NCBI GenBank assembly: GCA_032718865.1
Contig: JALUTQ010000001.1
Span: 1,736,001-1,800,000 of the forward strand
Reading direction: 5' to 3'
DNA length: 64,000 nt
From: Tilletia caries
Taxonomy: Eukaryota; Basidiomycota; Exobasidiomycetes; Tilletiales; Tilletiaceae
A program made the position numbers and the translations under genes. This document shows positions 3,925 to 60,474 of this stretch, piece after piece. Positions within the stretch are counted from its first letter, which is position 1. Each line of letters opens with the position of its first letter. The notes beneath the pieces were generated by a model. It saw only the letters and a program-made list of their open reading frames with translations. It searched no databases and was not told the DNA's origin.

Positions 3925-3926
3925 TA

Positions 3927-4927
3927 TGTGTGCTGTAACCTGCGAAGATGCTATTGGCAGCGCTGGGCCTGGGTCCTGGAAGGTGGGAAGCAAGGTATAC
4001 TTGCCGCTTTCCATCTGCAAATCATGTTGTTGTAGGTGAGTCTGGTGGGTCTGATCTGTGGGAAGTTCCCAGCTTCAGTGAGTTATTTACTTATTTTTCG
4101 TGTCTGAATCTGAGACGGGTGTCGGGAACGATTGTTGCCCAGGTCAGAGTGTCAGACGGCGTCGGTCAGTGACCAGAGCGTGCGTGTGGGTCCAAACAGG
4201 CAGGGCATACCGTGTGAACTTCGCATTGCGCTCGGGTCCTCCTTCATATTTCATACATCGACTTTGGGGCTCGTGCGGGTCTATGTGCTTCATGTTTTGG
4301 GCGGCAAGTTGCGTCGAGGTCATGTAGCAGGGCAATCAAAAGCGTGTCAGCGTGTACCCGACGCCCCCTTCAATCAAATGAGTACAGTACCATAAGACGG
4401 CAGGCCTCGTCCATAGCACAGGTACTTGTTATGTGAGACTGTCCGCCGCAGCACCATGGCCACGTAGGACACTCACAGTCTCACACTCGTCGACGAAGGA
4501 CCGTGAGATTTGGACATGACGAGGTCGAGGAATACATAAGGTGGGCCGGAAAAATTCGTTGGATTTACCTGTGAAATCGGTGAGGTAACATTTCCAAATG
4601 AGCTTGTTTATTGTTTACATAACCCAGGAACCGGCCTACGGAACGGGTGGCCTCGGGTATTGTCTGCGTTTATCCGAGTCCATAAATGCGCCCTCGCTGC
4701 CCTACCTGTCCCACCGCCGAGTGCCGACCTCCTGGCTTCCATCCTTATTATTCCGTGTGCATCAGTTCTTTCCCAATAATGGTCGTAGATCGTACGTTTT
4801 TTGACCTTCCACGGCCTACATAGTGGCCCGCAGCCAGGGGTATTGTTGCTCAGGGCAGGACTATATATGTACCTCTGCCTGTGACCTGACATGCCTGACA
4901 ATAGCATCGAGACGTCGACCTTCGAAT
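3927..4927. other. intergenic, nothing supported
   Basis: About 1 kb with only short overlapping frames and no convincing splice-linked coding sequence or repeat ends. Confidence 0.35.
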
Positions 4928-6652
4928 CATCGGGGATTAGGTAGTCAGTCGCACGGGGGTGCGCGAGCACCGTGCGAGGACCCCGCACACTGACTCCGTG
5001 CGAGGTCTGCGCGCCGCAGCGTTCGTGCGGTGGTCGCGCACCCCCGCGCGAGCCCTGGGGCGCGCGCAGACCGCGCGCAGGGCTCACCCATACCTCTTCT
5101 TCCATTGCAGCTCGCACTGCACTCAGACCTCTCACACACACACACACACCACAGTCCACAGAGATCGTGACAATCGAATGAAGCAATGAACATAACCAAC
5201 AAAGTAACTGTGATACATGATCGCGTCTGAACGTAACGGGAAGCAGAGTAGAAAGAGGGTTATGGAAAAGAAGTGGCTGCGGTCGAGCGTACTGAGGATG
5301 AGGGAAGATGCACCAGAGCGGTGGAGTACTGCGGATGATGGAGGACGACAAAAGTGTGGAGACTGGAAAGAATGGCGGAAGAGGTGTCAGCGATGTCAGT
5401 CAATGTTGGAGTGGGTGAAAGAAGTCAGCACATCTGTAGGTGGGGATGAATGGTGTTAGCACCGCAGCGTCACTGTGCCAAATGAAGTAGTTTCCAGTTG
5501 GTGGAAACTAATTGGAAATCCGCAGTTTCCATGGGGTTTCCATAGCGCTGGAAACTGGACCAGTTTTCGGGCAGTTTTCTTTGGATCCGAATACTGTGCA
5601 GTTTTCGAAGGGTTTTCGGTACTTGGAAACTTGGAGCGGGTCTGGGAGGTCGATGCCGGGCAAAGACCTCTTGGTTTCCCCAATTGGCATGACCCCGCTC
5701 AACAGTCTCAGGGTTTCTAGGTAACCGGCTTCAACCTCAGAAAATTCATAGCTGCTTCCTGACCGAAACGATGCTCATGTCTGACGACAGAAACCGTGGA
5801 ATTACTGTATTGCTACCTTTGTATACTTGTGTTGAGACATGCACTGGTCAGTGGTGAGTGTGGATGTGTCGAGTGGCACGGGTAGGCCGTGCCTGGGCAG
5901 CGACACCTTGAGACCAGGCGGTGGTAGCGCTTGACCCCACCGCGGTGGCGTGGTCTACAGGAGGCTTACATAAGGTGGCCCGTGCTACACCAAAGGGTTT
6001 TCGACATAGGAAAACTGTAGGAAAACTGCTGCGCATTATTTAGTTTTCGGCGGCGAAAACTATCGAGTTTTCACGGGGTTTCCACCAACTGGAAACTACC
6101 TTGGATGGCACAGTGCGTCACAGTCAGGGTGAGCAAGCCGCCAAGGCGTGATCTGGAGGGGAGAAGTGAGTGAGCGTTCCAATTTCCAAAGCGCTTGACG
6201 ACGAACGCGCGCGCAGTATGAGACTCGAAAGAGCAGCTGCTGAGGCACGCGTCCGTCTGAGAATGCAAGGAAAGGAAAGGAATGGTCGGCACGCGTTGTG
6301 GTGGTGGTGGTGCGCACGAGGGTCTTGGTGATGGTGGCGGGATGTCCTCAAAAAGGGGGTCCGGGCGGCAGCGCGGTGGGAATGTCACGTGAGGTGGTAT
6401 GGTCGTTCACTATTCACTTCTCAGAAAATTGACAAAGGTTCGGCTCGCGCGGATCTGCGCGCGCAATGTGTGCGGGAAGCAGCTCGCGCGGGGCCTGCGC
6501 GAGTGGTCAGCGCGAGCTATCCGCGCGCAGGCGCCCCGTGCGAGCCCCAGTGCGCGACCCTCTCACACAGGGTCAGATGCGCGAGACCCGTGCGACCATG
6601 CGGCGCGCGGGTCTCGCGCAGACCAGTGCGCGAAACCACCAAATCCCCGATG
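4928..6652. mobile_element. TIR element with GC-rich subterminal islands (interrupted)
   Basis: The left end begins CATCGGGGATTAGG at 4928 and the right end mirrors it (CCAAATCCCCGATG, ending 6652). The first 11 bp are identical, and about 21 of 27 bp match overall. AAT directly abuts both ends (4925-4927 and 6653-6655), a 3-bp duplication. Just inside each end lies a GC-rich island (about 4950-5095 and 6430-6640) built from repeated GCGCGAG/GTGCGAG motifs, as in CACTA-like subterminal repeat arrays. There is no coding capacity. It is interrupted by the 5471-6115 element. Class assignment (CACTA-like) is tentative. Confidence 0.55.
5471..6115. mobile_element. non-autonomous CACTG-ended (CACTA-like) element, 645 bp, nested
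   Basis: Both ends start CACTGTGCCA. The inverted repeats continue about 38 bp with a handful of mismatches, including a shared GTAGTTTCCAGTTGGTGGAA block. The 3-bp direct repeat CGT flanks the element (5468-5470 and 6116-6118), as expected for CACTA/EnSpm-like transposition. Subterminal AGTTTTC/GGAAAC motifs repeat on both arms. There is no transposase frame. It lies inside the 4928-6652 element, so it inserted later. Confidence 0.8.
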
Positions 6653-35033: not shown

Positions 35034-38000
35034 TCCCCCCCGAAAGAAGCTCGCCGTCCCGGGCGAGCCGGTGGATCACGGACGAGCCGAGACAGCGCGT
35101 CCACATTGACGTGTAAGCGGCCTGGGCGATACACGATGCGGAGGTTGTCGAGGTGAGGGCGGAGGATCGTACGTGCGCGCTCCACTGCATGCCCGTAGGG
35201 CAGAGCTCCAGGACGAGAATGGAGCATTCCATGCACCGGAGCGTGATCAGTCACAACAGTGACCTTCGCACCCTCGAGCATGTGCTGCGATCGCGTAAAC
35301 GCCCAACAAATGCACGCGAGCTCGAGCTCAGCGCCAGCCAGCTTCGATTCTGCGAAGGTCGTCGTTCGCGACATGAAGGCAACCGGCCGCTCGACCATTT
35401 CCATGCGGGTGCCCTCCCAATCAACGATCTTCGCCCTTGCGATCGGGTCTGCGAACGCGTCGGCAGACTGGGAGAGGATCGGGGTGGAAAGGTCTGGGCG
35501 AAGCGCATTTACTTCGTACGTCGGGTCACGGACGATGAGCGCCGGCTGACGTTGTCGCTGGCCGCGACGAGGGAATATCTCGGAAGAGGCGGCTGGCGGA
35601 TCCACTTCAGCGACTGCGGGCTGAGGGCTCGATGCAGACGCTGATGTGGAAGGTGCTGTCGGGTCCAAGTCGCGCTCGTCCTCGAACGGATCGTCTCCAG
35701 TGGGATGTGGCTCCAGCTGGGATATGTCGAACTCGTCGTCGATATTAAGCTCGGGCGGTACGTCGACCAAGACACGGTGCGGTGACAGCACACGACGCAC
35801 AACGAACGGACCCAATCGGACCGGATCCATCTTCCCTGATGGGGCGGATCGGACCGGTCGATCGCGCAGCCGGATCCAGACGGATGAGCCGGGAGCTAGC
35901 GCGGGCATGGCGGCGTGTCGTTCGTCGTACCCTTCCTTCTGACGCAGGCGCTCGGTCCGGATGCGCGTGCGAGCTTCCGACAGCCGAGCACGAGCGAGAC
36001 GGAATCGTTCCGCCTAGTCACCAACGCCGTCATGTCCACCGTCGCGGAGAAGAGCGTCTAGCAACCGTGGTGAGTCGATGAAGATCGCATCGAAAGGCGT
36101 CAACCCCGTCGCCGTGCTGACCGAGCTATTGATTGCTAGCTCGACAGCCGGAAGAACTTCGTCATCCCAGAGGCCGGAACGAGCGGTACTCATCGCCCGA
36201 AGAACGCGCTGAACGATCTGGACGTGCCGTTCGACTGGATTCGCCTGGTGGTGGTGAGGCGGTGTCGCGGTGATGCGAGCACCCAAGAATCCGGCGAGCT
36301 GCTGGCCCGCCTCGCCGATGATCCGCATGTCGTGATCGGATGTCAGCCGCTCTGGACGCCAACCGAGGCGCACGATCCTGTTCATGACGAACTTAGTGAC
36401 ATCCGTCGCCGTGAACGCGGACGTGCAAGGCTCGAGGAGTACCATTTTCGAGAAGGTGTCCACCGCCACCAAGTACGCGTCGTTTCGGCGTCGAGAGGAC
36501 GGGAGGCCAAGCACGATGTCGATGGACACATGCTGGAAAGGACGAACAGCATCGTGATCGATGTCCAGAGAGCCCGTCTTCCTCCCGCACTTAGTTCGCA
36601 AGCAGACCCCGCAATACCGAACGTACGCCTCGACGAGACTCGACAGACGGGGATGCCAGAACTGCGTGGCGACCAGGGCGTATGTCTTGCCGAAGCCGAA
36701 ATGGCCACCGTCGTCGTGCGCGTGACGAAGCACGGCGAGCAGCATCGAGCGAGGGACGCAGACCCTCCCGTCGTCGCGCCGAATCAAGATCCCATCCTTC
36801 ACGGCGTAGACACCGTCGTCGTCCTCGGTCGTTGGTGATGCAGCGAACCGTCGCATCGTTGGAGCAAACGTTGGATCACGAAGAAGAGCATCGGACCAAG
36901 CGAGTGGGTCCAACGGAGGCGTTAGGTTGGGCCATGCGGGAGCAACGACTGTCGGAACAGAAGGGACCGGATGGACGTGGATCTGATGAATAGCGGCGGC
37001 GAAGCCACTCTTGCACGCGTCCGTATACAACAGAAAGGGTCGGTCGTAGTCGGGATGCGCCAGAGTGGGCGGGCTGATGAGAGCAGACTTCAGATCATTG
37101 AATGCTGATTCCTCTTTGTCTGACCATGCGAGGAGCTGGGCTTGTTTCGATGTAGGTGTACCGTCGGACCGTAGCAGTCTCCAAGCACTGCCAACACGCT
37201 GATACGCGAGACCTTTTGTGAGGGCCGTAAGAGGAGCTGCGCGTTGTGAGAAGCGTGGAATAAATGAACGATAATAGGATAACAGACCGAGTGTATGGTA
37301 TAGCTCCTGGAGGTTGCGTGGGCGAGGCAACTCTCTAACCGCAGCCGCGCGATCCTCCATGACCCCAAGGCCAAACCCAGACACCTTCCTACCCAGCAAT
37401 GTGAGTTCCCGAACCGCGAACGTGCATTTAGCGGGACTAAATCGTAGTCCTACTCGCTCAGCCTCCGACAGAACGTATTTCAACGCGGTGAGGTGTTCGG
37501 CAAGGGAGTGCGTAAACACCACGATGTCGTCCAAATACACGAGTGCGGCGATCCACCGAATGGGACCCAGGAGAGCGTCCATCATGCGTTGGAAAAATGC
37601 TGGAGCGGCAGTCAATCCAAAGGGAACTCGGCGGTATTGGAAGAGACCGCGATGTGTTGCGAAGGCGGTTTTCCAACGATCTTCAGGATGGACGTCGGCC
37701 TGATGGTAGCCGCGGACGGCGTCCATACTGCTGAACCAGGAGTGGCCACGCAAGGTTTCGATGACGTCGTCCACGCGGGGGAAGAGGGTATCGATCTGGA
37801 GTAGTCGCCTTATTCAATGACCGGTAATCGACACAGAAGCGAAGCTTGGTGCGCTGTTTGACCAGATGGACGGGCGCGCTGACGGGACTCGTGCTTTCTT
37901 CCACAACTCCCCATTCCAGCAGCTGCGCCAGCTCCTTGTCGATCGCTTGTCTCTTCTCCGGACTAACACGCCGGGGCGGGTCCGCCTGAAGCTGGGCGGT

Positions 38001-39580
38001 GTCCTCCACTGGAATCCGCATCGCCACGTCTTGCACGTGTCCAGGACGACCGTCGAGAGAGAAGGCCTCCTTATGCTGACGAAGCAGCGCCACGACTTCG
38101 CGATGTGGAATGCCGCCGTCGTCCACCCCGACCCGAAAGACGTCATCAACGATGATCGTCGCGTTCTCTTGTGCGCGAGCAGCGAGAGGTTGTTCGTCGA
38201 ACTCGAACTGATCGAGCGGGGAGCCTGGGGGTGTCGAGAACGGTGCAGGGATGGGGGTGGTGTCGGATAGTGGAAAGGCGTATGCCTGGAGAGTGGAGAC
38301 GGAGCCTGGACCGCAGGCCGTGGCCTCGCCAAGCAGAGTGCGGCTCGGAACCTCGAGTGCCTCATCGCTGAAGTTGGTGACGAGGATGCGAGAGGTCTGG
38401 CGGTCCATGATGCAGGGAATGGCGACTGCCATTTGTTGTTGTGCTGGGTCCAAGTGCCAAGTCGGATCGAGAGTGTAGTCGACGTCGGCAATGAGCGCAG
38501 CGCAGTCGACCGGCACCCAGGTATGATAACCGGGGGCGAGTACAACCGCTTTTTCGAGTGCAGATCTTGCCCAGGAAGGTATGTGCTGGAGGCTTGTCAC
38601 TGCGCACTCGGAAGTGATGCCCCCTGCATCGAAGCTTTGTTGCTGGAGGGGTCGACGACCAGACCGTGACCTGAAATCCAATCCTGTCCAAGAAGAATGC
38701 CCGGCGCAAAGGATGGAACGACATGGAAGTCGTGGTCGAAATCCAGTCGGACGGCTCCGTCGGTGTCGTCCGTGCCTTCAATACTGAAAGACAACGTGAC
38801 GAACCCCAACGTGCGCTCGGTCCCAATGCCATTGATGCTCAGTGTCCCTCCCGAGGGAGCATGTCCGAGTCTCTCAGCCAGGCTTGCGTCAATCGTGGAC
38901 AGCGAAGCACCGGTATCGACGAGACAAGGGACAGGTGCCAGGTCAGTGTGAGGGAACTGGACCTGACAGGACGTCGGAGCATGGCGTAGGTGACCGAGAC
39001 CAGAGCCCGTCTCTACCAGGCGGGATAGCTTGACGCCCCGAACCTCACCTCGCGGGCGCTTTGGGGACACCGCGATTGTTGGCGAGGTCGTGGGTTGTCG
39101 AAGCCATTGATCCGCTAGGTAGAGAACGGGAGACTGACGATAGTCCCTAGCCTGAGTGGAAGGCAAAGGGGTATCATCAGTAGAACTCTGGTCAGACGCA
39201 ACGTTGGGAAGGCAAGTGTGATACTCGCCTTGGGGGTGACCCCGGGTTGTCTGGTCGGATGAGGGCCCATGTCCTCCGCCAGGTCCCAGGGTCGGGATCG
39301 TGCTGTACCCGTCGTCGCGGACCTCCCTTGGGCCCAAGGAGGTCGCAACCCTCTCGACGACGCTCTTGCATCCCCCGGCTTCCATCTCCTGCCGAGGGGG
39401 GGGGTTGCAGCAGCTCAGGGAAGTGTAGTCCGAGCCGCCAGGTTTTTCTTCTCCAGCACTCCCGGCACCCAGCACTGGCTGAGCCAAGAAGGCGGGGGGC
39501 GGGGGAGGCTCTGCCGGCTTGTCCTCGAGAGGAACAAAGCCGGGTGGTGTAATTAGTTTATTGTCATTACGGACATTCAA
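35015..39580 (-). CDS. pol polyprotein, copy A: PR-RT-RNaseH(N half)-IN-[TAG]-IN C-term-RNaseH(C half)
   Basis: Order along the protein: protease with VPCLVDTGASLSTID near 38930-38890; reverse transcriptase LRFCVDYRSLNKA, PFGLTAAPAFFQRMMD and catalytic VYLDDIVVF; then FLLYTDACKSGFAAAIHQIH (37033-36977), the first strand of RNase H with its Asp. The fold stops there and integrase begins: HDDGGHFGFGKT...YCGVCLRTKC zinc region, DIVLGLP, TSDHDMRI, ANPVERHVQ. An in-frame TAG at 36016-36014 follows GGHDGVGD. Beyond it the same frame goes on through GSSVWIRLRDRPV (IN C-terminal domain) to the rest of RNase H: RPVAFMSRTTTFAESKLAGA, ELELACICWAF, VVTDHAPVHGML, HVNVDALSRL. Frameshifts relative to copy B at about 37778 (G5 vs G4), 38552 (T5 vs T4) and 38620 (C5 vs C4). 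No ATG at its start, so expression depends on gag frameshifting. Confidence 0.9.
35034..35041 (-). promoter_or_regulatory. polypurine tract, copy A
   Basis: A G-run on the coding strand directly precedes the downstream LTR. It also encodes the Gly-Gly of the pol C-terminus. Copy B has six more bases here. Confidence 0.6.
36014..36016 (-). other. in-frame TAG inside pol, copy A
   Basis: Codons on both sides are in one frame and both sides look like integrase sequence (GGHDGVGD, TAG, AERFRLARARLSEARTRIRT). The same TAG occurs in copy B (42318-42320). Confidence 0.9.
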
Positions 39581-40974
39581 AAACCCGTGTCCTCGGTGCA
39601 GGGATAATCCTCATCTGCTTCGATGGCGAGGACAGTCGGCACCGTGTTCTTAGAACAGTGCTCGTGGGCGAAACCGAAGTGGTCTCCCCGACAGTGGTCG
39701 CAGGGACGGACACACCACATAAGGCGAGTGGTGTCCGGAATCTTGTACGCCATCATCATCCTCTTGAGTTCGGGATGCATGCGGATGGCGAGGTTCGCGG
39801 GGGTGAAGTCCGACCGAATCGAACGACCGCGACGCGGGTCTGAGCTGGCGGTGTTGGGCCGAGGAGCTTGAGGGAAAGCGTCGGCCGAAGGTGAACCTGA
39901 CTGAGTGTCGGCTTGAGCAATAAATGCGCTCACGGTCGGGGCGGACAAAGGTGCCACCAGACTGTCGTATGCCGGAACGCCAGCAGCAGAAGATGCGTTC
40001 GCCGGACGAGACAGAGGCCGACCGTACTCCGCGCGCCAGTACGTCTCCTGCATGCGCAGCTCGCTTCGCAGTGCAGAGAGTGTGGGGTCGGCTCGGAAGG
40101 GAGTCTGAACGAGCTTGGCAATAGATGGGTCGATGCCCTCCATCACTTCGCTGACGAGCTCGTCCTCCCCCATGTTCTCCCAGCCGGTCTTGAGCATCGC
40201 GGCCTTGACGAACGTATAGTGTACGACGTCTTCTGAGTCGGGGAGCCAGCGACGAGCTCGTGCTTGTTGACGGATGACGGCAATGGGGGGGCGGAAGTTG
40301 GTCCGGATCGTCGCGATGAAGGCGTCTAGGCTGGTGAGCGAAGACTTGCGCTGCTCGGGAGGTAGCGCGGCGAACCAGAGTCGGGCAGGGCCACGCAGAG
40401 TGCGTGGAAGCGCCCGCAAGATGGCCTTGTCCCACCCGGAGTCGGTCTCCGAGACGCGCATTGCCTCAATGTTTGAGAGAAACAGCGCCGTGTCTTCTGG
40501 TACGCCGTGGAAGAAGCCGAGCTCCTCGGGTTTGATGTTGAAGGAGCGGCCGGACTCCTCGGCGTCAGGGAGCTGAATCCGTATGTTCTTGCCGACGGAG
40601 ACGGAAGAGGGAGTCATCCCACCTCGGAAAGCAGCCTCGGCGCTGTTCCATTTGGGTGTGACGGGCGAAGGCGGGGTGGATGCGGCGTCGAAGGTGGACG
40701 ACGCGGTGGATGCGCCGGTGGTTGATGACGCGAGAGTGTGGGTGGAGGCTGGCTCGGTCTTGGTTGTCACCGGATGGGCGAGGCGGTTCAGAAGCTCATC
40801 GAACTTGGAGTGAAGTGAGCCGACTTCAGCCTTGAGGGAGCCAATGTCGGAGTTGTTCGAGTCGATGGAGTTGCGCAGCGCCGACACATCACCGTCGAGT
40901 TTGGCGCGGGCGGCGTCGAGCGCCGCGAACTCGTCTCGAGTGGGTGTGTCGGGGGGTGCTTTGGGCGGAGCCAT
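39577..40974 (-). CDS. gag, copy A, intact
   Basis: The ATG at 40974 gives MAPPKAPPDTPTRDEF, 465 residues, ending DEDYPCTEDTGF at TGA. The N-terminal ~60 residues form a coiled coil (KLDGDVSALRNSIDSNNSDI...). The middle holds the retrotransposon gag helices (ILRALPRTLRGPARLWFAAL, then LDAFIATIRTNFRP). The C-terminus has a Cys/His cluster, CVRPCDHCRGDHFGFAHEHC, a non-classical nucleic-acid-binding knuckle. The start precedes any other ATG downstream of the primer-binding position. This is the only copy of gag in the window with an unbroken frame. Confidence 0.9.
   Translation of the reverse strand: MAPPKAPPDTPTRDEFAALDAARAKLDGDVSALRNSIDSNNSDIGSLKAEVGSLHSKFDELLNRLAHPVTTKTEPASTHTLASSTTGASTASSTFDAASTPPSPVTPKWNSAEAAFRGGMTPSSVSVGKNIRIQLPDAEESGRSFNIKPEELGFFHGVPEDTALFLSNIEAMRVSETDSGWDKAILRALPRTLRGPARLWFAALPPEQRKSSLTSLDAFIATIRTNFRPPIAVIRQQARARRWLPDSEDVVHYTFVKAAMLKTGWENMGEDELVSEVMEGIDPSIAKLVQTPFRADPTLSALRSELRMQETYWRAEYGRPLSRPANASSAAGVPAYDSLVAPLSAPTVSAFIAQADTQSGSPSADAFPQAPRPNTASSDPRRGRSIRSDFTPANLAIRMHPELKRMMMAYKIPDTTRLMWCVRPCDHCRGDHFGFAHEHCSKNTVPTVLAIEADEDYPCTEDTGF
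39580..39586 (-). promoter_or_regulatory. -1 ribosomal frameshift heptamer GGGTTTT, copy A
   Basis: Read as G GGT TTT in the gag frame, it fits the X XXY YYZ slippery rule and is followed immediately by the gag stop TGA (39579-39577). Slipping back one base enters the pol frame, which is open and lacks an ATG. The same sequence is at 45879-45885 in copy B. Confidence 0.75.
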
Positions 40975-41050
40975 TGTGGGTGAGGAAAGCCAGGTCTGTA
41001 ACGAAAGGGAGAAAGACTTGTTCGTCAGATTCAACCCAATCTCATCACCA

Positions 41051-41331
41051 TGTAACGGCAAGGTTGCGCGCTACTTACTTCTATTCGGTTCAGACGGTGC
41101 TGACCAGAAGCGATGAATAAGAGTGGTGTTGAATGATGGAGAGAGAGAGAGAGCTAAGTACAACGAGAGCGAGAAGTTGCTATGCGACAGTGCAGAGAAG
41201 AGCGTGGGAGAAAAGAGGGAAGCGGGAAGGGAAGCGAGACCATGTGGAGTGAAGCAGCCATGATGAGAGAGAACGGAACGGAACGGAGCGGAACAGAGAG
41301 AATAGAGAGAAGTCATAGAGAGCCCATCACA
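41051..41331 (-). repeat. LTR 2, shared by copies A and B
   Basis: 281 bp, TGTAACGG...CATCACA. It serves as the upstream LTR of copy A and the downstream LTR of copy B. Confidence 0.95.
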
Positions 41332-44300
41332 TCCCCCCCCCCCCCGAAAGAAGCTCGCCGTCCCGGGCGAGCCGGTGGATCACGGACGAGCCGAGACAGC
41401 GCGTCCACATTGACGTGTAAGCGGCCTGGGCGATACACGATGCGGAGGTTGTCGAGGTGAGGGCGGAGGATCGTACGTGCGCGCTCCACTGCATGCCCGT
41501 AGGGCAGAGCTCCAGGACGAGAATGGAGCATTCCATGCACCGGAGCGTGATCAGTCACAACAGTGACCTTCGCACCCTCGAGCATGTGCTGCGATCGCGT
41601 AAACGCCCAACAAATGCACGCGAGCTCGAGCTCAGCGCCAGCCAGCTTCGATTCTGCGAAGGTCGTCGTTCGCGACATGAAGGCAACCGGCCGCTCGACC
41701 ATTTCCATGCGGGTGCCCTCCCAATCAACGATCTTCGCCCTTGCGATCGGGTCTGCGAACGCGTCGGCAGACTGGGAGAGGATCGGGGTGGAAAGGTCTG
41801 GGCGAAGCGCATTTACTTCGTACGTCGGGTCACGGACGATGAGCGCCGGCTGACGTTGTCGCTGGCCGCGACGAGGGAATATCTCGGAAGAGGCGGCTGG
41901 CGGATCCACTTCAGCGACTGCGGGCTGAGGGCTCGATGCAGACGCTGATGTGGAAGGTGCTGTCGGGTCCAAGTCGCGCTCGTCCTCGAACGGATCGTCT
42001 CCAGTGGGATGTGGCTCCAGCTGGGATATGTCGAACTCGTCGTCGATATTAAGCTCGGGCGGTACGTCGACCAAGACACGGTGCGGTGACAGCACACGAC
42101 GCACAACGAACGGACCCAATCGGACCGGATCCATCTTCCCTGATGGGGCGGATCGGACCGGTCGATCGCGCAGCCGGATCCAGACGGATGAGCCGGGAGC
42201 TAGCGCGGGCATGGCGGCGTGTCGTTCGTCGTACCCTTCCTTCTGACGCAGGCGCTCGGTCCGGATGCGCGTGCGAGCTTCCGACAGCCGAGCACGAGCG
42301 AGACGGAATCGTTCCGCCTAGTCACCAACGCCGTCATGTCCACCGTCGCGGAGAAGAGCGTCTAGCAACCGTGGTGAGTCGATGAAGATCGCATCGAAAG
42401 GCGTCAACCCCGTCGCCGTGCTGACCGAGCTATTGATTGCTAGCTCGACAGCCGGAAGAACTTCGTCATCCCAGAGGCCGGAACGAGCGGTACTCATCGC
42501 CCGAAGAACGCGCTGAACGATCTGGACGTGCCGTTCGACTGGATTCGCCTGGTGGTGGTGAGGCGGTGTCGCGGTGATGCGAGCACCCAAGAATCCGGCG
42601 AGCTGCTGGCCCGCCTCGCCGATGATCCGCATGTCGTGATCGGATGTCAGCCGCTCTGGACGCCAACCGAGGCGCACGATCCTGTTCATGACGAACTTAG
42701 TGACATCCGTCGCCGTGAACGCGGACGTGCAAGGCTCGAGGAGTACCATTTTTCGAGAAGGTGTCCACCGCCACCAAGTACGCGTCGTTTCGGCGTCGAG
42801 AGGACGGGAGGCCAAGCACGATGTCGATGGACACATGCTGGAAAGGACGAACAGCATCGTGATCGATGTCCAGAGAGCCCGTCTTCCTCCCGCACTTAGT
42901 TCGCAAGCAGACCCCGCAATACCGAACGTACGCCTCGACGAGACTCGACAGACGGGGATGCCAGAACTGCGTGGCGACCAGGGCGTATGTCTTGCCGAAG
43001 CCGAAATGGCCACCGTCGTCGTGCGCGTGACGAAGCACGGCGAGCAGCATCGAGCGAGGGACGCAGACCCTCCCGTCGTCGCGCCGAATCAAGATCCCAT
43101 CCTTCACGGCGTAGACACCGTCGTCGTCCTCGGTCGTTGGTGATGCAGCGAACCGTCGCATCGTTGGAGCAAACGTTGGATCACGAAGAAGAGCATCGGA
43201 CCAAGCGAGTGGGTCCAACGGAGGCGTTAGGTTGGGCCATGCGGGAGCAACGACTGTCGGAACAGAAGGGACCGGATGGACGTGGATCTGATGAATAGCG
43301 GCGGCGAAGCCACTCTTGCACGCGTCCGTATACAACAGAAAGGGTCGGTCGTAGTCGGGATGCGCCAGAGTGGGCGGGCTGATGAGAGCAGACTTCAGAT
43401 CATTGAATGCTGATTCCTCTTTGTCTGACCATGCGAGGAGCTGGGCTTGTTTCGATGTAGGTGTACCGTCGGACCGTAGCAGTCTCCAAGCACTGCCAAC
43501 ACGCTGATACGCGAGACCTTTTGTGAGGGCCGTAAGAGGAGCTGCGCGTTGTGAGAAGCGTGGAATAAATGAACGATAATAGGATAACAGACCGAGTGTA
43601 TGGTATAGCTCCTGGAGGTTGCGTGGGCGAGGCAACTCTCTAACCGCAGCCGCGCGATCCTCCATGACCCCAAGGCCAAACCCAGACACCTTCCTACCCA
43701 GCAATGTGAGTTCCCGAACCGCGAACGTGCATTTAGCGGGACTAAATCGTAGTCCTACTCGCTCAGCCTCCGACAGAACGTATTTCAACGCGGTGAGGTG
43801 TTCGGCAAGGGAGTGCGTAAACACCACGATGTCGTCCAAATACACGAGTGCGGCGATCCACCGAATGGGACCCAGGAGAGCGTCCATCATGCGTTGGAAA
43901 AATGCTGGAGCGGCAGTCAATCCAAAGGGAACTCGGCGGTATTGGAAGAGACCGCGATGTGTTGCGAAGGCGGTTTTCCAACGATCTTCAGGATGGACGT
44001 CGGCCTGATGGTAGCCGCGGACGGCGTCCATACTGCTGAACCAGGAGTGGCCACGCAAGGTTTCGATGACGTCGTCCACGCGGGGAAGAGGGTATCGATC
44101 TGGAGTAGTCGCCTTATTCAATGACCGGTAATCGACACAGAAGCGAAGCTTGGTGCGCTGTTTGACCAGATGGACGGGCGCGCTGACGGGACTCGTGCTT
44201 TCTTCCACAACTCCCCATTCCAGCAGCTGCGCCAGCTCCTTGTCGATCGCTTGTCTCTTCTCCGGACTAACACGCCGGGGCGGGTCCGCCTGAAGCTGGG

Positions 44301-45879
44301 CGGTGTCCTCCACTGGAATCCGCATCGCCACGTCTTGCACGTGTCCAGGACGACCGTCGAGAGAGAAGGCCTCCTTATGCTGACGAAGCAGCGCCACGAC
44401 TTCGCGATGTGGAATGCCGCCGTCGTCCACCCCGACCCGAAAGACGTCATCAATGATGATCGTCGCGTTCTCTTGTGCGCGAGCAGCGAGAGGTTGTTCG
44501 TCGAACTCGAACTGATCGAGCGGGGAGCCTGGGGGTGTCGAGAACGGTGCAGGGATGGGGGTGGTGTCGGATAGTGGAAAGGCGTATGCCTGGAGAGTGG
44601 AGACGGAGCCTGGACCGCAGGCCGTGGCCTCGCCAAGCAGAGTGCGGCTCGGAACCTCGAGTGCCTCATCGCTGAAGTTGGTGACGAGGATGCGAGAGGT
44701 CTGGCGGTCCATGATGCAGGGAATGGCGACTGCCATTTGTTGTTGTGCTGGGTCCAAGTGCCAAGTCGGATCGAGAGTGTAGTCGACGTCGGCAATGAGC
44801 GCAGCGCAGTCGACCGGCACCCAGGTATGATAACCGGGGGCGAGTACAACCGCTTTTCGAGTGCAGATCTTGCCCAGGAAGGTATGTGCTGGAGGCTTGT
44901 CACTGCGCACTCGGAAGTGATGCCCCTGCATCGAAGCTTTGTTGCTGGAGGGGTCGACGACCAGACCGTGACCTGAAATCCAATCCTGTCCAAGAAGAAT
45001 GCCCGGCGCAAAGGATGGAACGACATGGAAGTCGTGGTCGAAATCCAGTCGGACGGCTCCGTCGGTGTCGTCCGTGCCTTCAATACTGAAAGACAACGTG
45101 ACGAACCCCAACGTGCGCTCGGTCCCAATGCCATTGATGCTCAGTGTCCCTCCCGAGGGAGCATGTCCGAGTCTCTCAGCCAGGCTTGCGTCAATCGTGG
45201 ACAGCGAAGCACCGGTATCGACGAGACAAGGGACAGGTGCCAGGTCAGTGTGAGGGAACTGGACCTGACAGGACGTCGGAGCATGGCGTAGGTGACCGAG
45301 ACCAGAGCCCGTCTCTACCAGGCGGGATAGCTTGACGCCCCGAACCTCACCTCGCGGGCGCTTTGGGGACACCGCGATTGTTGGCGAGGTCGTGGGTTGT
45401 CGAAGCCATTGATCCGCTAGGTAGAGAACGGGAGACTGACGATAGTCCCTAGCCTGAGTGGAAGGCAAAGGGGTATCATCAGTAGAACTCTGGTCAGACG
45501 CAACGTTGGGAAGGCAAGTGTGATACTCGCCTTGGGGGTGACCCCGGGTTGTCTGGTCGGATGAGGGCCCATGTCCTCCGCCAGGTCCCAGGGTCGGGAT
45601 CGTGCTGTACCCGTCGTCGCGGACCTCCCTTGGGCCCAAGGAGGTCGCAACCCTCTCGACGACGCTCTTGCATCCCCCGGCTTCCATCTCCTGCCGAGGG
45701 GGGTTGCAGCAGCTCAGGGAAGTGTAGTCCGAGCCGCCAGGTTTTTCTTCTCCAGCACTCCCGGCACCCAGCACTGGCTGAGCCAAGAAGGCGGGGGGCG
45801 GGGGAGGCTCTGCCGGCTTGTCCTCGAGAGGAACAAAGCCGGGTGGTGTAATTAGTTTATTGTCATTACGGACATTCAA
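41313..45879 (-). CDS. pol polyprotein, copy B (same split RNase H layout)
   Basis: Open from the frameshift site at 45879 to about 42750 (1060 codons), covering protease, reverse transcriptase, RNase H N half (YTDAC near 43318-43332) and most of integrase. One extra T (T5 versus T4 in copy A, about 42750) breaks the frame in the integrase core. Beyond it the copy A frame continues to the shared TAG (42320-42318) and the C-terminal extension with the RNase H C half (about 41700-41360). The C-terminus has two more Gly than copy A because the polypurine G-run is six bases longer. Taken with copy A, every pol segment is intact in at least one copy apart from the TAG. Confidence 0.9.
42318..42320 (-). 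other. in-frame TAG inside pol, copy B
   Basis: Identical in position and context to 36014-36016 of copy A. Confidence 0.9.
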
Positions 45880-47270
45880 AAACCCGTGTCCTCGGTGCAG
45901 GGATAATCCTCATCTGCTTCGATGGCGAGGACAGTCGGCACCGTGTTCTTAGAACAGTGCTCGTGGGCGAAACCGAAGTGGTCTCCCCGACAGTGGTCGC
46001 AGGGACGGACACACCACATAAGGCGAGTGGTGTCCGGAATCTTGTACGCCATCATCATCCTCTTGAGTTCGGGATGCATGCGGATGGCGAGGTTCGCGGG
46101 GGTGAAGTCCGACCGAATCGAACGACCGCGACGCGGGTCTGAGCTGGCGGTGTTGGGCCGAGGAGCTTGAGGGAAAGCGTCGGCCGAAGGTGAACCTGAC
46201 TGAGTGTCGGCTTGAGCAATAAATGCGCTCACGGTCGGGGCGGACAAAGGTGCCACCAGACTGTCGTATGCCGGAACGCCAGCAGCAGAAGATGCGTTCG
46301 CCGGACGAGACAGAGGCCGACCGTACTCCGCGCGCCAGTACGTCTCCTGCATGCGCAGCTCGCTTCGCAGTGCAGAGAGTGTGGGGTCGGCTCGGAAGGG
46401 AGTCTGAACGAGCTTGGCAATAGATGGGTCGATGCCCTCCATCACTTCGCTGACGAGCTCGTCCTCCCCCATGTTCTCCCAGCCGGTCTTGAGCATCGCG
46501 GCCTTGACGAACGTATAGTGTACGACGTCTTCTGAGTCGGGGAGCCAGCGACGAGCTCGTGCTTGTTGACGGATGACGGCAATGGGGGCGGAAGTTGGTC
46601 CGGATCGTCGCGATGAAGGCGTCTAGGCTGGTGAGCGAAGACTTGCGCTGCTCGGGAGGTAGCGCGGCGAACCAGAGTCGGGCAGGGCCACGCAGAGTGC
46701 GTGGAAGCGCCCGCAAGATGGCCTTGTCCCACCCGGAGTCGGTCTCCGAGACGCGCATTGCCTCAATGTTTGAGAGAAACAGCGCCGTGTCTTCTGGTAC
46801 GCCGTGGAAGAAGCCGAGCTCCTCGGGTTTGATGTTGAAGGAGCGGCCGGACTCCTCGGCGTCAGGGAGCTGAATCCGTATGTTCTTGCCGACGGAGACG
46901 GAAGAGGGAGTCATCCCACCTCGGAAAGCAGCCTCGGCGCTGTTCCATTTGGGTGTGACGGGCGAAGGCGGGGTGGATGCGGCGTCGAAGGTGGACGACG
47001 CGGTGGATGCGCCGGTGGTTGATGACGCGAGAGTGTGGGTGGAGGCTGGCTCGGTCTTGGTTGTCACCGGATGGGCGAGGCGGTTCAGAAGCTCATCGAA
47101 CTTGGAGTGAAGTGAGCCGACTTCAGCCTTGAGGGAGCCAATGTCGGAGTTGTTCGAGTCGATGGAGTTGCGCAGCGCCGACACATCACCGTCGAGTTTG
47201 GCGCGGGCGGCGTCGAGCGCCGCGAACTCGTCTCGAGTGGGTGTGTCGGGGGTGCTTTGGGCGGAGCCAT
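45876..47270 (-). CDS. gag, copy B, frame-broken
   Basis: Same protein as copy A gag, with the start at 47270. Two homopolymer differences break it: G5 instead of G6 at about 47250, shortly after the start, and G5 instead of G7 at about 46585 in the gag core. The TGA and slippery heptamer at the 3' end are unchanged. The copy is either inactive or mis-sequenced. Confidence 0.85.
45879..45885 (-). promoter_or_regulatory. -1 ribosomal frameshift heptamer GGGTTTT, copy B
   Basis: Same G GGT TTT TGA arrangement as in copy A. Confidence 0.75.
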
Positions 47271-47346
47271 TGTGGGTGAGGAAAGCCAGGTCTGTAACGA
47301 AAGGGAGAAAGACTTGTTCGTCAGATTCAACCCAATCTCATCACCA

Positions 47347-52486: not shown

Positions 52487-53180
52487 CGAAAGCTCTGCGC
52501 CGGGGCCCTCGGCGGGCTCAGCGGAACGCTATGATTTCCGCGCGTTTGAGGCCCGTGGGGGAAGTGAAGCTCAAACGCTCAAATAAGACTACATCAGACC
52601 CAAGCATGTCTTCTCGACGACACCGCCAACGAAATCTCAGTCTCATTAGGACTTGGGGAGAGACTTGACAGATCCTTGGGAAACATAAGACCCGAAAGGT
52701 GCAACGAAGTCTAGCGCCCCTTTTGGAGAAGTCTTGTCAAGACAGGAAAAAAATCTTGAGGAAGACTTGGGGGAGCGGCTTGGGGAAGCACTTGCCAGCT
52801 TATGTAATGCACTCTGACCAACTCTATTTTGGGCGCCGATCTGAGCTAGCGCGTCTCAGCAGACCGTGGCGTCTGGCTGTGTCCACCCATGACCCACGCA
52901 TGCCATCCTGCTTCACCATGCAGCGTCCTCACCATCCAGCCTCAACACCTCCAGTCACCTACATGTTATGATGACCCGCCAAAGACGGCGCTGTGGCGTG
53001 TTGCCTTTGCACCTTTGCTTGCTCCTTGTCGAATGCGACAATGTTCGATAAAATTGCAAAGACCCGTGACTCGGGTTCGCTGCGAGACTCACGCTAAAGA
53101 CCAGCCATTTGAACGTCACGTGACAAGAAGCTGCGTGCCGCTCGAAAATGAGCAAAAAGCTGCCAGAAGTCTCCCTCAGG
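52487..53180. other. intergenic, with CAAGACTT-type repeats
   Basis: No supported gene. GACTTGGGG/AAGTCTTG motifs recur at 52648-52800, and similar ones resume right of the next element (59724-59760), consistent with that element having inserted into an older repeat. Confidence 0.4.
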
Positions 53181-53189
53181 GCTCCGTGG
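53181..53189. repeat. 9-bp target duplication GCTCCGTGG, left copy
   Basis: Identical to 59705-59713 and directly adjacent to the TIR on both sides. Confidence 0.9.
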
Positions 53190-53443
53190 TAGTCTCATCG
53201 TATCAGCCAGTCATGCGGATGAGCCACGCGCCTCGAATTACAATTTGGCTTTGTATTGCTCGTTACAAAAAATTGAAACTCCGCAACCCGCCTAATGCTT
53301 TGCGAGCTCTGTCCGCAGGACAGTCTGATTCCCAAGTGTAAGGACACTTAGTGGAGTGCAGCGCCCACCCAAGACCAACACCTCCAGCCAGTCACCACTC
53401 AACCGCATACATCATTGCAGACAGCATACATCCCATTGCAGGC

Positions 53444-55802
53444 ATGCGATCCCACAGCTGGAAGCCCCCCTTGTGCGCAGTTCCTCAGAATCCCGCACGG
53501 CGAGCGCATTCAGGCGCTAGTAGCTCCATCCTAGGCAAGCGGAGAGCGCGCGACGAGCCAGAGGAAGACACCCGCTGGTCGAAGCGTGCCAAGGTAACCC
53601 ATAGATCTCCTCTTTACTCTTCATTCCTTCTCAGCTGGTTGTCTTGATTATGCTCATGCTCATCTCTTATGTTCTCTCTTTCCTCTATTCCCTTCTTCTT
53701 CTGTCTCTTCTCTCTGCAGCTTTGCTATCCTTCATTGCAGATCCTCGAGAAGACCAAGCTACAGTTCCAGCCCCGTCCGCATCAAGTGGTGGCGTCGGAT
53801 GCGATCCACCGAGGATGGGATGTCGTCTTCAAGTCCCCCACGTCTACCGGGAAGAGTCAGGTTATCGACTACCTCGACTGTCTCCTTGATGACGGGGTTA
53901 TCATCACCATTGGACCCCTGCGAGTTCTGCTGAAAGAATACGTTCAAAGGTGTGTATTGATCAGTCATCGAGCACCGCAGCTTCCTCTGTTGATGTCTCC
54001 TACATGCGACTCACAGATTTGGGGATCGAGCGACGCATGTGGACGCCAACCACAAAGACCCAGCGCTGCTGGCTTCAATTCGCGACGGGAAGTTCCGGTT
54101 TGTCTTCACGACTGCGGAGTCCGCCACGGAAGGCGCCTTCCTCAACCAGGTCCTAATGCACGAGAAGTTCAGGAAGAAGGTCAAGGCATTTGTCTTTGAC
54201 GAGGCGCATACACTCGATCAATGGGGAAGAGACTTCCGCCCAAAGTTCCTTCAGCTCGGTCATGTGCGCAAGCATCTCTCAGCGCCCGTACTCATCATGT
54301 CGGCAACACTCACCAAGGTTGCGCAGCAGCTCTGCGAGACGACCCTTCAGCTCTTCAAGCCCCTCGTCGTCGACGTTGGAACCGACAGACCGAACATCTT
54401 CCTCCGAGTCCAGCCAATCATGTACGCGGAGAGCAGCTTCCTCGACATCTTGACGGCGTTGCCTCAGCTGTGGGAGCCTGCCGGGGATGAACAGACCATG
54501 GACCAACGCAGACAGGAATTCCGACCGACCGTCATCTTCGTCAACAACAAGGAAACGGCGACCTCGATGGTATATCGGCTGCAACAGTGGTGCAAGAGAG
54601 CCGGGTTCGGAGACGTCGTCGACGTATTCCACGCAGACATGTCGGAGAAGCACAAGGGTATCGTGCGCGAGCGCCTTGATAACGGGTCGACGCTCATTGC
54701 AGTCTGCACCGATGCGTTTGGAATGGGCGCCAACTGTCGTGTTCTCCTCGACATGTTCCAGTGGAAGATGTACGGAGGGGTCTCGGCTTACTGGCAACGG
54801 ACAGGAAGGTGCGGACGGAAGTTCAACGATCGCGCTGTGGCCACTCTCTTCGTCGACAGTACTCACATCGACTCGGAACTCAAGAAGACCTTGACGACCA
54901 CGGGCCAACTCCCAGGCGACGATGAGGCGGAGGATCGAGCTCGAGAGTCGACATCGCTCGAAGAGGACGTTCGAATGATGCGAGGCGAGAAGAAGGCAGG
55001 GGATCGACAAGTTGCAGACGACGAGATGATTGCTCTTGCTCGGCATGGTCTTGCTCGGGATGCATGTCTGCGCAAGCTTGTCCTTGAACACCTTGGTCAG
55101 CCCAGCATTGACAAGTTGCCCACGCTTGCTGAGCTGTTTGGCGCTGGGCCTAACGACGACGGATCGGACTTACCTTGCTGCTCAACTTGTGATCCATACG
55201 ATCTTTCGGTTTTGCCGAAGGATCTACATGCGCCAAAAGAGAACGTTCCGCTTTTAAAGGACCTCGTTGCCACACAGAAAATCCTTCGGCCTCGCCTGGA
55301 GGAGTGGCGGCGCAAACAATACAAGGAGTCGTGGAGACGCGCTGGTGGAGCTGGACGGTTGGGAATCAACGCTTATATGAGCTTGATGGATATCGATGCG
55401 GTTGTCTGCAACTTAAAAATCATTGCGAACAACATCAGCAACGGAGACTCACGCTTAAGCGACATCGTCAACATGCCCTTCAAGGAAACGGTGCTTGGCC
55501 CACTGGAGGTCGAAATCAAAAACGTCCTGCGGGAGGCAGAGGACGAACGAGAAGCTGCAAGGAAAGCACAAGAGGAGCAACGTCGTCAGCGGGCTGAGGA
55601 CACAAGGAAGCGTCAGGCGGACAGAAGGGATCAGCGAACTAGAGCAGAAATGCAACAGAGGGTTCAGCAGGCGGAGAGCTCGAGCTCTTCATCGTCGACA
55701 CGAACTCGAGCATGCACAACGTGCACGGACATCAATAGTCATCTACCGCCGACCGACGAGAAGCTCGAGGCACGAGGACACAATAGTAAGGCTTCTGACT
55801 GA
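53444..55802 (+). CDS. RecQ-family DNA helicase carried by the TIR element
   Basis: Three exons: 53444-53593 (MRSHSWKPPLCAVPQNP; donor GTAACC), 53741-53949 (an acceptor 21 bp earlier is also possible) and 54017-55802, about 714 residues, phases consistent. Helicase motifs in order: 0/I region QPRPHQVVASDAI and SPTSTGKS (Walker A), FVFTTAESATEG, DEAHTLDQWGRDFRPKFLQL (motif II with the RecQ-type continuation), LIMSATLT (III), PTVIFVNNKETATSM (IV), VCTDAFGMGANC (V), YWQRTGRCGRKF (VI). Then DLPCCSTCDPYDL, a reduced RecQ zinc-binding region, and a long Lys/Arg/Glu coiled coil at the C-terminus. No HRDC domain was seen. It resembles the telomere-linked RecQ helicases of fungi. ATP-dependent 3'-5' unwinding in the nucleus is expected; inside this element it may process transposition or replication intermediates. 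Confidence 0.85.
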
Positions 55803-56013
55803 TCACTGAACAACCAGCAACATTGGGGCACGAGAGCTCACCTATTCTTCTTTCCGACCCGTTTCTGCTGACAGAGAGCAACCGCATTTGTCCTGGGAGG
55901 ATTTGGCTGGAGAATCGCAAGCCATTGGATGGGGAGGACTGGGCAGAAACGTGGATGAAAGTGTTGTTTATTCTGGCCAACCCCAGGCCTCGTCCTACTG
56001 CGCAATGAACCAA

Positions 56014-59000
56014 TCAGCAAACATCGTCCTCTAGTTCCTCGAAGCCAGCTGTGGATGATGATAAGCCTATATATGCAAACCCCTCTTCTGCAGCGGCACC
56101 TTCCAATACTGGTTGATCAGCGTCGGCATGTGTCGCTGCCGCGCCCTCCTTGCCCAATGAGAGGGCTTGTCTTGCCTTCCATCGGTCGTATGAGCCACTT
56201 CCGGTTGACGTTCCGGATAGCTGAAGCATTCCGCTTGCCCACGCGTCGCATGCCATTGTCTTGCTTTGGCGGATGTGCTTGGTGCTTTTTCCTGCTGCCT
56301 GTAAACTGGATCGTTCTTGACGAACTGCGTCGCCTCGCATGACCTCAAACTCGGAGCCTGCTCGTCCCTGGTCGTCCCACTCGAAGATCTTGAGTCGGTC
56401 GAAGTCTCGCTGCAGAGCCGTGATGGTAATGGCACGCTTCTTGTCCGAATGATTCTGTGATTGCGACGCGATTCCCAAGTCCTCCCACAGGCCCATCTTC
56501 ATTCCAGCGAGGACCTGGAGCAGCGAGCCGATGACCTGCTTGTACTCCAGAGACTTGGTCGTTCCTCCCACCGGCCAGGTATGTTTCAGGTCGAAGACGA
56601 AGTTCTCTTGGAGCAAATCTGTCGGCACGAATGTGTTTCGGCCGCCGTCCGTGTTGACGAAGAGGGATGCGACCATGATTGCACGCAGCGCAGGAGGCAT
56701 CTCGAATCGAAGCGAGACGATGATCTCCAGCAATTCCGACACATAGTTGTGCTGTCCAGTCGACTGAAAGCGTGGGACGAGCATCTTCATGGCGAGGATC
56801 AGACGTCCTGCACCTCCCACCTTGATCGCAGCCTGGAGCTCGATGAACAATGCGACATCGGCAAACATGGTTCGGCTGTGCAGGGCGATGTCGTCCCGCT
56901 TCTTTCCGTCCTCCTCCTGCTCGTCAAGAAGGTCTTGTGCGCTGTACTTGAGGAGATCGCGGATGGCTGCGTTGCTGATCCGCAGAAATGTCTCATGGTC
57001 GAGCCGACCCTTGAACTCCTCTGCGGGATGTTCCGCGTCATTCTCGCCTCCCGGATGCCGTGCTCGTCGCTCTGCGGTTCCTCGAGCTGGTTGGGCGGCA
57101 TGAGCTGGATTGTCCGCAGGCTTGTCGGCAGAAGATGCGGTTGACAGTGGATCCAGGTGCTTTCGAACTGCCTCTTCGATGACAGAGTTGCACGCAGCGG
57201 CGAACCAAAAGTGAAGGAATCGAGATGAGTCGTGGAAGTTGTAGGGCTGGGTGAGGAGGTTTCGAAAGCCGACCCGCTCGGAGAGATGCCGGAAGCTGAT
57301 GGCACTGGGCTGATCTTTAGCCCCGCCGTGATTGAGGAACAAGCATCGGATGTACGCATACTGAACAGAAAGAATCAATCTTGAATCAGATACAGTCAAA
57401 CGAGCTCTATCGTAAAGGGGGTGCATGCTCACCATGAGATGCCAGGGCGCAGCCCATGGCTGCTGGGCGTCAAACTTGTCAAAGGAGTCCGGAGAACGGT
57501 CCAGGTTTCGCGTCCGCTGGGCTTGCTTGATCTTCTCTGTCGTGAAGGCATCGGCGATGATCGAGAGAACTCTGTCTCTCCAGAAGGAATTCGGAACCTT
57601 GACGTGCTTGTCGAGGTATTGCTTGAACACCTCGATGTTGCCTTCTACGGATCCTTCGTCGACATCAAGGACTGGAAGCGTGTGGACGACGGTCTTCCGA
57701 GGCGTCAAGGGCCAGATCTGAGGGGGCTCGGGAAAAGGATGGTCGTAGTCGAGGTATTGATGCTGCGTCAGGAAAGCCTTGCGCGCGTGACTGACGACAG
57801 ACAGTACGAATTGCTCGTCGTCTGTCTCGCTGCTGAGAAGTGAAAAAGGGTGGATGTCCGGCGTTGCTTGCTTCCTCATCTGATCCCGCTGCTCTCGAAT
57901 CTTTGGCCACAGACCGTCCGGGTTGTGTGCTCGATCCGCCAGGTTGGTCGGCGTTGTTGATGGCTTTGGCATGTCGGATCCGAAGATCTCGTCGACCACA
58001 AGAGGATCGCAGACGGGATGCTGGGGTCCTTCTTGTAGCTGAACCGACGCGTCTACCTCGTAAACTACGCCGTGGACCGCAGCTCGCATCGTGTTGGTCA
58101 CCGTAAGACCCTTGTTCCGTGCTCGCTGCAACCAGTTGATATTGTCGTAGCCAAGCGCGAGAACGGAGAAGGGGTCCTTGATCTTGGCGATGAGCTGGCG
58201 GCGCGCGGATCGAGACAGTGCCTTGACCGCCCGATGAATGGTCAGGTACGATGCTGAAAGCCCCATCCTACCCAGAGCTTCAATCGTCCGCCGTCCCGTT
58301 CTTGAGGCAAACAAGAAAAGGCCGAGGTTCAGGCCAAATCTGCCGTTCCGATTGTTGCGGCCCATGAGCAGGCACAGTGTGTTGGCGGCTGCCACCTAAA
58401 GGAGTATCGAATCAGCGTACAGATTCTACAAGGCCAAAGGAAAGGAGGCTACTCACGATCTTGGGGTTCCTCTTCCCTTTGCGTCGTCGTGACACCGGAG
58501 CTGTCTCTTTCGGTTCCGCTTCCGTCCCGTCATTGCCATCCGCAGTGGCAGGTTGCCCCTCTTCAACATCGTCCCTAATATCCTCCCCGACATCGTCCCA
58601 TACATCTCGGAGCTCATCTTCCTCGGCAGCGGCCAAGTCCGACCCTGAGTCTTCCAAAGGTTGCAGTTCACTGTCCGAGGCTCCTTCGTTTAAGGCCTCC
58701 TCGTCGTCAGCGGTTGATGCGAGCGGAGCCAGCGTCGACATGGCCTCTTCGACTGCAGTGGATGTGTTTTCGACCGGCGCATCGTCGTCTTTCCCTACTC
58801 CTGCGATGGCTTGTGTGACCGCGAAGGTGATAGGCAAATTGCTTTCGAGTATGTCGACAGCGGACTTGAGTCGGAAGGTCCTAATGTCTTCAGCGCGGCT
58901 GTGGCCTTGTGGTCGAGAGATCTCTGGAAGCGCGGAAGCCTTGGAAGCCTCTTTGCGAACCTGCCGCAGTATGTAGTTGACTGCCGATTCTTGCGCGCTG

Positions 59001-59305
59001 GGGCAGTTGTCGATGAACGACTTGGCCGCTATCGTACCGAAGAAAGGATTGACCCGGGATCGGACCTGTCGGAGTGTGTCCTTGGAGAAGCTGGATTGCG
59101 CGGGGTCGAACAATGCCCTGAGTAGGGCGCTGCAGGAGATGTTCCGTCCTCCGAGCCAATCAAAGAACGATTCCGCGTCGGCATCTTGTAGGTTTCTGCG
59201 CCGCCGAGAAGACGCATTTTGAGGGCCAGAGCTTTCGGCGGGGACGGAGGAGAGCGAAGAGAGCGAGGAAGTGCTCCATTCCGGAGAAGGACTGCGGCTG
59301 TCCAT
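56014..59305 (-). CDS. DUF6589-type protein, candidate transposase of the element
   Basis: Three exons: 59305-58457 (MDSRSPSPEWSTSSLSS), 58395-57433 and 57360-56014, introns GTGAGT...TTTAG and GTGAGC...TTCAG, phases 0, about 1052 residues. Residues ~1-280 are Ser-rich, with a helical part (SALLRALFDPAQSSFSKDTL) and then an acidic segment. The core resembles the basidiomycete DUF6589 family: LGLFLFASRTGRRTIEAL, GLSASYLTIHRAVKAL, VLALGYDNINWLQRARNKG, TNTMRAAVHGVVYEVD, and near the C-terminus YVSELLEIIVSLRFEMPPAL followed by FVPTDLLQENFVFDLKHTW. The YDNIN block and later conserved acidic residues could belong to an RNase H-like nuclease core, but I cannot prove this. Family assignment is from memory of its motifs. 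Confidence 0.75.
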
Positions 59306-59704
59306 ATCTGTAAGACTGTAGGGAGAGAAAAGTAGGTTGGCAGACAGGGAAAAGGTGGAAAAAGAAGCAAGCAGAGATGTAAGAAGGTCAGCAAGCAGCG
59401 CATCAGGAAGCCTGAAAGCCGGCGGTGGGGTAAGGAGGTGCGCACATGTTATCAGGGGAGGTCAGACAAAAAAAACTGATGCTGTTGATGGTGTTGTGGT
59501 GAGCCTGATGGGTTTGTGGTGGTGGATATGCTGTGGCGGAGGTGTCGAAATGCGCATCTCCCCATTCTCCACTACTTTGGAATCAGACGTCCTAGCGGAC
59601 TGGCTGACGCCCTCTCATAGGCGTGAAGCGGAGTTTGAAATTTTTAATTTAAAGCTCACGTGGCAGGGGTTTATCCGCTCTGGACGTCTGATACGATGAG
59701 ACTA

Positions 59705-59713
59705 GCTCCGTGG
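59705..59713. repeat. 9-bp target duplication GCTCCGTGG, right copy
   Basis: See 53181-53189. Confidence 0.9.
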
Positions 59714-60474
59714 CAGGGTTTGCCCAAGTCTTGATGGGGCGAGCCTTGTTCAAGACTTTGGTGCTCAGACTGCCAAAAGTTCCCATGCGCAGTCTCATCG
59801 AGCCTCCATATGATGATTTCCAAAGAATTAGGCCCCCCAGGCTTATACAAGACTGGGATTTCGTTGGCGGTGGAGCTCTCGAAGCTCTGTGCTCGCACTT
59901 CATTATTCATCCCTTCCTCATCTACATCGTTGCCCATTTCGAACGTTTGGATCTTGCCTTCGCTGGCTGGGACGACACCGCTCTTACGGCCAGGTTCACT
60001 ATGAGCAAGATCGGGCTGCCGCGACCTCATCAAGAACACCGACCTGCAGATGGCGTCAGAGCAACTGGAAGTGTCGCACAACATGTACCCGGACTTTGAC
60101 ACGGATTTTGGAAAGATGCTGCGCCTTGCCAGCTGCCAGCTTGGCAATGCTTCCTGACCACCATCCCCTCTCCTTGCGCTGCTGAATCACTGAGGTAGCT
60201 TGCTCTCAGCGCGCGGCTTTTGAGTCTCTTTATCTCTGCTTGTCGACGCTCGTCCTGACCGCCTGACCCCCGACCTCATCCCATCAAGTGGCTCATCCGT
60301 TCTTCCTCGGGTTGTTTCCCTCGCAGCGCGACTTCACTCCCCTTCCTCGCGCGAACCCATTCAGTCCTCTCACAGCGGCCTCTCGTCCTCGCTCGGCGGT
60401 ATCGAAGGTGCAAGTCGCCAACCTCTCTGGGCGCTCATATAGATACAAGACGTTCACACGATAAACGTTCGGCC
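59714..60474. other. intergenic; leader of the NADAR gene at its right end
   Basis: Overlapping frames of about 130-160 codons on both strands have no recognisable similarity and no splice support. From about 60210 the + strand is CT-rich, the likely promoter/leader of the gene at 60475. Confidence 0.4.

Follow-up and report, generated by a model that had tools for sequence, protein, structure and literature searches.

Two convergent genes lie between short inverted repeats in the window, which is the whole 64-kb stretch of Tilletia caries DNA analysed here. The locus raises the question of whether this interval is a mobile element and, if so, which of its genes moves it and to what kind it belongs. 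It was found to be a transposon of 6,515 bp (53190..59704) that is real and recently mobile. A perfect terminal inverted repeat (TIR) of 17 bp, TAGTCTCATCGTATCAG, is present at the left end (53190..53206, + strand) and at the right end (59688..59704, - strand). The TIRs are bordered by an identical 9-bp target-site duplication (TSD), GCTCCGTGG, at 53181..53189 and 59705..59713. For the 17-mer with up to three mismatches, 0.09 occurrences are expected by chance in the window. The interior is filled by a gene for a RecQ-like helicase (+) and a gene of the DUF6589 family (-), both intron-containing and free of internal stops. Ends, flanks and gene pair had been described in an earlier interpretation, the sequence-only reading, and all were confirmed. 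Its proposal of a self-mobilising DNA transposon also held, in view of the end pairs found, their 9-bp duplications, the empty sites and the conservation of the gene pair.

The genome searched comprised 38.1 Mb in 40 contigs. The exact 17-mer occurs in 21 copies, versus none for a reversed control pattern; with up to two mismatches, the counts were 33 and 2, respectively. Eleven inverted end pairs were picked by their ends alone; nine have exact ends, and in the other two each end differs from the 17-mer at two positions. Of these 11, 8 are flanked by exact 9-bp duplications (the window element, L013, L015, L017, L018, L019, C5:161204-169231 and C5:81928-90320). The L014 duplication has one mismatch in 9 bp, which brings the pairs with exact or one-mismatch duplications to 9 of 11. 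At L016 a 9-bp match exists, but it is displaced by 3 bp, and no duplication was found for the L010/L011 pair (11.5 kb). Inside the latter, copia-type gag, integrase and reverse transcriptase matches were observed (L010 727-9013). The end pair of L041, whose right end lies beyond the fetched stretch, came from the two-mismatch search, which left eight inexact places unpaired. Three exact ends are solitary (C1:1606190, C4:725434 and C40:1437854); the last adjoins a broken helicase gene that is 50-73% identical in pieces to the window helicase.

Gene-less short copies of 551, 1,171 and 1,309 bp carry the same ends. A longer copy, L013, is a 2,574-bp deletion derivative whose shared parts are 99.2-100% identical to the window element. 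Since this near-identical copy occupies a different site and has a duplication of its own, recent activity is indicated. The spread of the element is recent and low in copy number. A subfamily lacking both genes was also noted (L014, L016, L018, L019 and L010/L011); its members have the 17-bp ends in common and inner stretches 88-100% identical to one another. Beyond the tips, these members gave no match to the window element at E ≤ 1e-5.

Empty sites were sought with the flanks of 14 insertions joined around one copy of the duplication, and the first seven whole sites were searched in the genome. For the window copy, nine genomic places match 290 of 291 empty-site positions end to end, with 98-100% identity. 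Full-length empty places were also found for L019 (three) and L014 (five), and none in the genome for L013, L015, L017 and L018. A letter-by-letter comparison of nine empty sites (four belonging to the window copy, three to L019 and two to L014) showed that each continues across the junction without a break and contains the duplicated word once, GCTCCGTGG being single in all four sites fetched for the window element. Both compared L014 sites have the left form of the L014 duplication, so the single mismatch in its right copy seems to have arisen afterwards. End pairs with 9-bp duplications and empty sites, which the sequence-only reading had proposed to look for in related basidiomycete genomes, were found within the host genome. 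The window element lies in a multicopy host repeat (52621..59872, represented by 52621-53180 and 59714-59872), whose copies elsewhere are the empty sites. This outer repeat has its own inverted ends, CACCGCCAACGAAATCC, with one mismatch, and no clear duplication was seen at its borders.

The two genes were searched independently in the genome, giving 75 segments for the DUF6589 family and 72 for the window helicase, which clustered into 48 loci each; these counts are lower bounds. A helicase locus is located no more than 6 kb from at least 40 of the 48 DUF6589 loci, and 39 of 40 pairs are convergent. In the sole tandem pair the helicase is already paired with another DUF6589 gene. Eight DUF6589 loci and nine helicase loci have no partner. 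Stretches this close to a helicase locus make up about 1.7% of the genome, so that less than one pair would be expected. The two genes, about whose adjacency the earlier interpretation had asked, form a unit. It could be supposed that RecQ and DUF6589 genes of the host or its subtelomeres simply lie between chance repeats, as RecQ genes near fungal telomeres are described in the available part of PMC4522978. The linkage, the duplications, the empty sites and the ends common to gene-less copies argue against this, leaving it next to no probability.

For twenty gene-pair loci, the sequence examined included 2-3 kb on each side. Inverted ends with exact duplications were identified at seven of them, namely TAGTCTGGTMACACCAGACC-type ends with 10-bp duplications (L025, L028, L030, L032 and L033) and TAATCAC-type ends with 9-bp duplications (L036 and L039). 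DUF6589-helicase pairs thus occur with three distinct TIR families. As a control, left flanks were compared with the right flanks of other loci, and 5 of 380 comparisons gave a match when one TSD mismatch was allowed. A match at L034 (13/17, one TSD mismatch) was not counted, the control yielding similar ones. At L021 and L029 a window-like right end with two mismatches is present, yet no left end that pairs with it and shows a duplication was found.

Many of the ends consist of TA followed by a palindrome. In the 10-bp family the dyad consists of two 7-bp arms separated by 3 nt (weaker at one L033 end), and random sequence reaches this score in about 0.1% of cases. In the TAATCAC family, 5-bp arms are retained at both ends although the two ends differ in sequence (about 0.6%). 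The window family matches at 6 of 7 arm positions at the right end (1.3%) and 5 of 7 at the left. When dyads, TIR and duplication were jointly required, 7 of 21 loci qualified versus 0 of 420 control pairs. The dyads are probably dimer binding sites. Such dyads at some of the termini were not met in the literature searched.

The dyad score of the window left end is reached by 12% of random sequence and is not remarkable. What speaks against universality is that at 13 of the 20 gene-pair loci no countable ends with a duplication were found in the 2-3 kb flanks; these ends are read as degraded, more distant or unrecognised. The sequence-only reading had named homologous gene pairs without TIRs or duplications as one finding that would contradict it. 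Among pairs chosen by their ends, 9 of 11 keep the duplication with at most one mismatch.

The DUF6589 gene (56014..59305, - strand; exons 59305-58457, 58395-57433 and 57360-56014) encodes 1052 aa. The exon boundaries of both genes were predicted by manual reading of GT/AG signals and frame. A Tilletia laevis protein (P0001, 759 aa) begins within exon 2 and agrees to the end, including the second intron; the start codon and first intron come from the manual reading alone. A T. laevis protein is 100% identical to the DUF6589 protein across 98% of the searched region, and relatives at 49-54% identity were found in T. maclaganii, T. indica and T. controversa, which would place the host among the bunt fungi of this genus. 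The protein matched PF20231 (E 1.6e-61), a Pfam family of unknown function. Three acidic residues, D, D and E, are invariant in the alignment, giving the candidate triad D367 (codon 58146-58144), D565 (57552-57550) and E856 (56607-56605). DUF6589 is tightly linked to the helicase within elements that show defined ends, duplications and empty sites, which makes it likely to be the transposase, most likely one of the DDE type. This role was not met in the literature searched, where the term DUF6589 was found in no paper.

The helicase gene (53444..55802, + strand; exons 53444-53593, 53720-53949 and 54017-55802) encodes a superfamily 2 (SF2) protein of 721 aa. It matched PF00270 (1.7e-14) and PF00271 (4.8e-10), and the motifs TSTGKS, DEAH, MSAT and QRTGRCGR are intact. 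Its nearest relatives in the PDB are RecQ, RECQ5 and BLM. The helicase is most likely an accessory factor. The division of labour suggested earlier, with DUF6589 as transposase and the helicase as helper, is supported.

In the low-confidence structure models of the DUF6589 protein, the best whole-core rows were those of the hAT transposase Hermes, which were obtained with the first model, and a large helical stretch precedes the last E. Elements of the hAT type have 8-bp TSDs and no helicase. The present transposon differs in its 9-bp TSD and its helicase, and no hAT Pfam match was obtained at E ≤ 1. Foldseek comparison of the models with the PDB and with viral models gave nothing at E ≤ 0.001.

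A 9-bp TSD is typical of Mutator-like elements (MULEs), which opens the possibility of a non-autonomous element moved by a MULE transposase, with DUF6589 and the helicase as passengers. L014, which has the same TIRs, indeed contains MULE and SWIM matches. These are confined to L014 element positions 565-6209, a nested MULE-type transposon with a MULE/ZSWIM RNase H-like match and a weak SWIM match. It is bounded by GGAGGGCCTTGTTTCCCCGAA and GCACGGCCTTATTTCCCCGAA, not by TAGTCTCATCG ends, and has its own 9-bp duplication, CTAGGACGT; the host copy lacks the helicase and DUF6589 genes. In addition, no MULE (PF10551) or hAT match was detected at E ≤ 1 in the window protein or 11 relatives, nor any MULE or SWIM match in the proteins of the window element at this cutoff, and the gene pair occurs with all three TIR families. 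A MULE mobiliser was rejected as very improbable.

AcademH elements are reportedly DNA transposons of the Academ superfamily with a helicase, described by Kojima in 2020. According to the portions available of the published descriptions, AcademH duplications measure 9 or 10 bp and those of AcademX 3 or 4 (PMC10045372). AcademH is low-copy in Basidiomycota, Ascomycota and Mucoromycota, and DEAD and Helicase_C are listed among the domains from AcademH, KolobokH or Helitron (PMC10799480). In PMC8290104 and PMC12210899, AcademH was found in the reference lists only. By its published description, AcademH is resembled by the transposon in the DEAD and Helicase_C helicase, the TIRs, the 9- or 10-bp TSDs and the basidiomycete host, and no difference was found among these features. 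On this basis it most likely belongs to AcademH. Two earlier claims, an "undescribed kind" and the absence of a known recombinase, are not supported: the anatomy, with a helicase gene and a DDE-type gene, TIRs, 9- or 10-bp duplications and a basidiomycete host, matches AcademH as described (PMC10045372, PMC10799480, as far as available).

KolobokH, a fungal Kolobok with a RecQ helicase and a DDE-type transposase as far as PMC9587614 describes it, resembles the transposon in these components. It was rejected on its 4-bp TTAA duplications, against 9 and 10 bp here, and on gene order, the helicase being a separate convergent gene here (PMC9587614, in part). This assignment is hardly credible. A stronger competitor is an undescribed superfamily with DUF6589 as founder transposase, merely AcademH-like in its helicase and its 9-10 bp duplications. 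The likeness to AcademH is one of described features, and DUF6589 is a term absent from the literature searched. A PDB profile search found no DDE relative, its sole match being a ribosomal protein (E 0.83). Furthermore, three protein searches gave Tilletia members only, with about 8,000 candidates scored in each, so that absence elsewhere is unproven. On the other hand, both TSD lengths found in this one genome equal the AcademH lengths in the available text of PMC10045372, the phylum is one in which AcademH is reported, and the helicase domains are those that PMC10799480, in the part available, lists for AcademH, KolobokH or Helitron. A new superfamily is considered unlikely.

Taken together, the element is read, with a probability of about 0.84, as an AcademH-type DNA transposon that moves by cut and paste, with DUF6589 as DDE transposase and the helicase as an accessory. 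In such a transposon the DUF6589 protein would have D367, D565 and E856 in an RNase H-like core, interrupted ahead of the last E by a large helical insertion, and would bind the partly palindromic termini and cut the ends. The cut ends would be joined to target strands 9 bp apart, the spacing being 10 bp in another family of this genome. The RecQ-like helicase may open the ends or the target, or may resolve the gapped intermediate, and the gene-less short copies with the same ends could be mobilised in trans. In an unlikely variant, DUF6589 would be the transposase of a superfamily distinct from Academ. Its dyad termini (TA plus a 13-17 nt palindrome) would be opened by the RecQ-like helicase of the element itself, which would then be obligate for end recognition and not a helper in repair.

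Elsewhere in the window, long terminal repeat (LTR) retrotransposon-type open reading frames were observed on the - strand at 36014-47337. Two of them gave reverse transcriptase, RNase H and integrase-type matches, and one also a protease match.

No paper joining Tilletia, Academ and transposable elements was found in the literature searched. The kind of transposon is most probably already known, as AcademH, and the novelty is a likely job for DUF6589. Because DUF6589 is likely a transposase, genes annotated with this name are to be suspected as transposon genes. With several families in one genome, duplications of both 9 and 10 bp, derivatives that lack the genes and a deletion copy that is 99% identical, T. 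caries offers a good place to study the role of the helicase.
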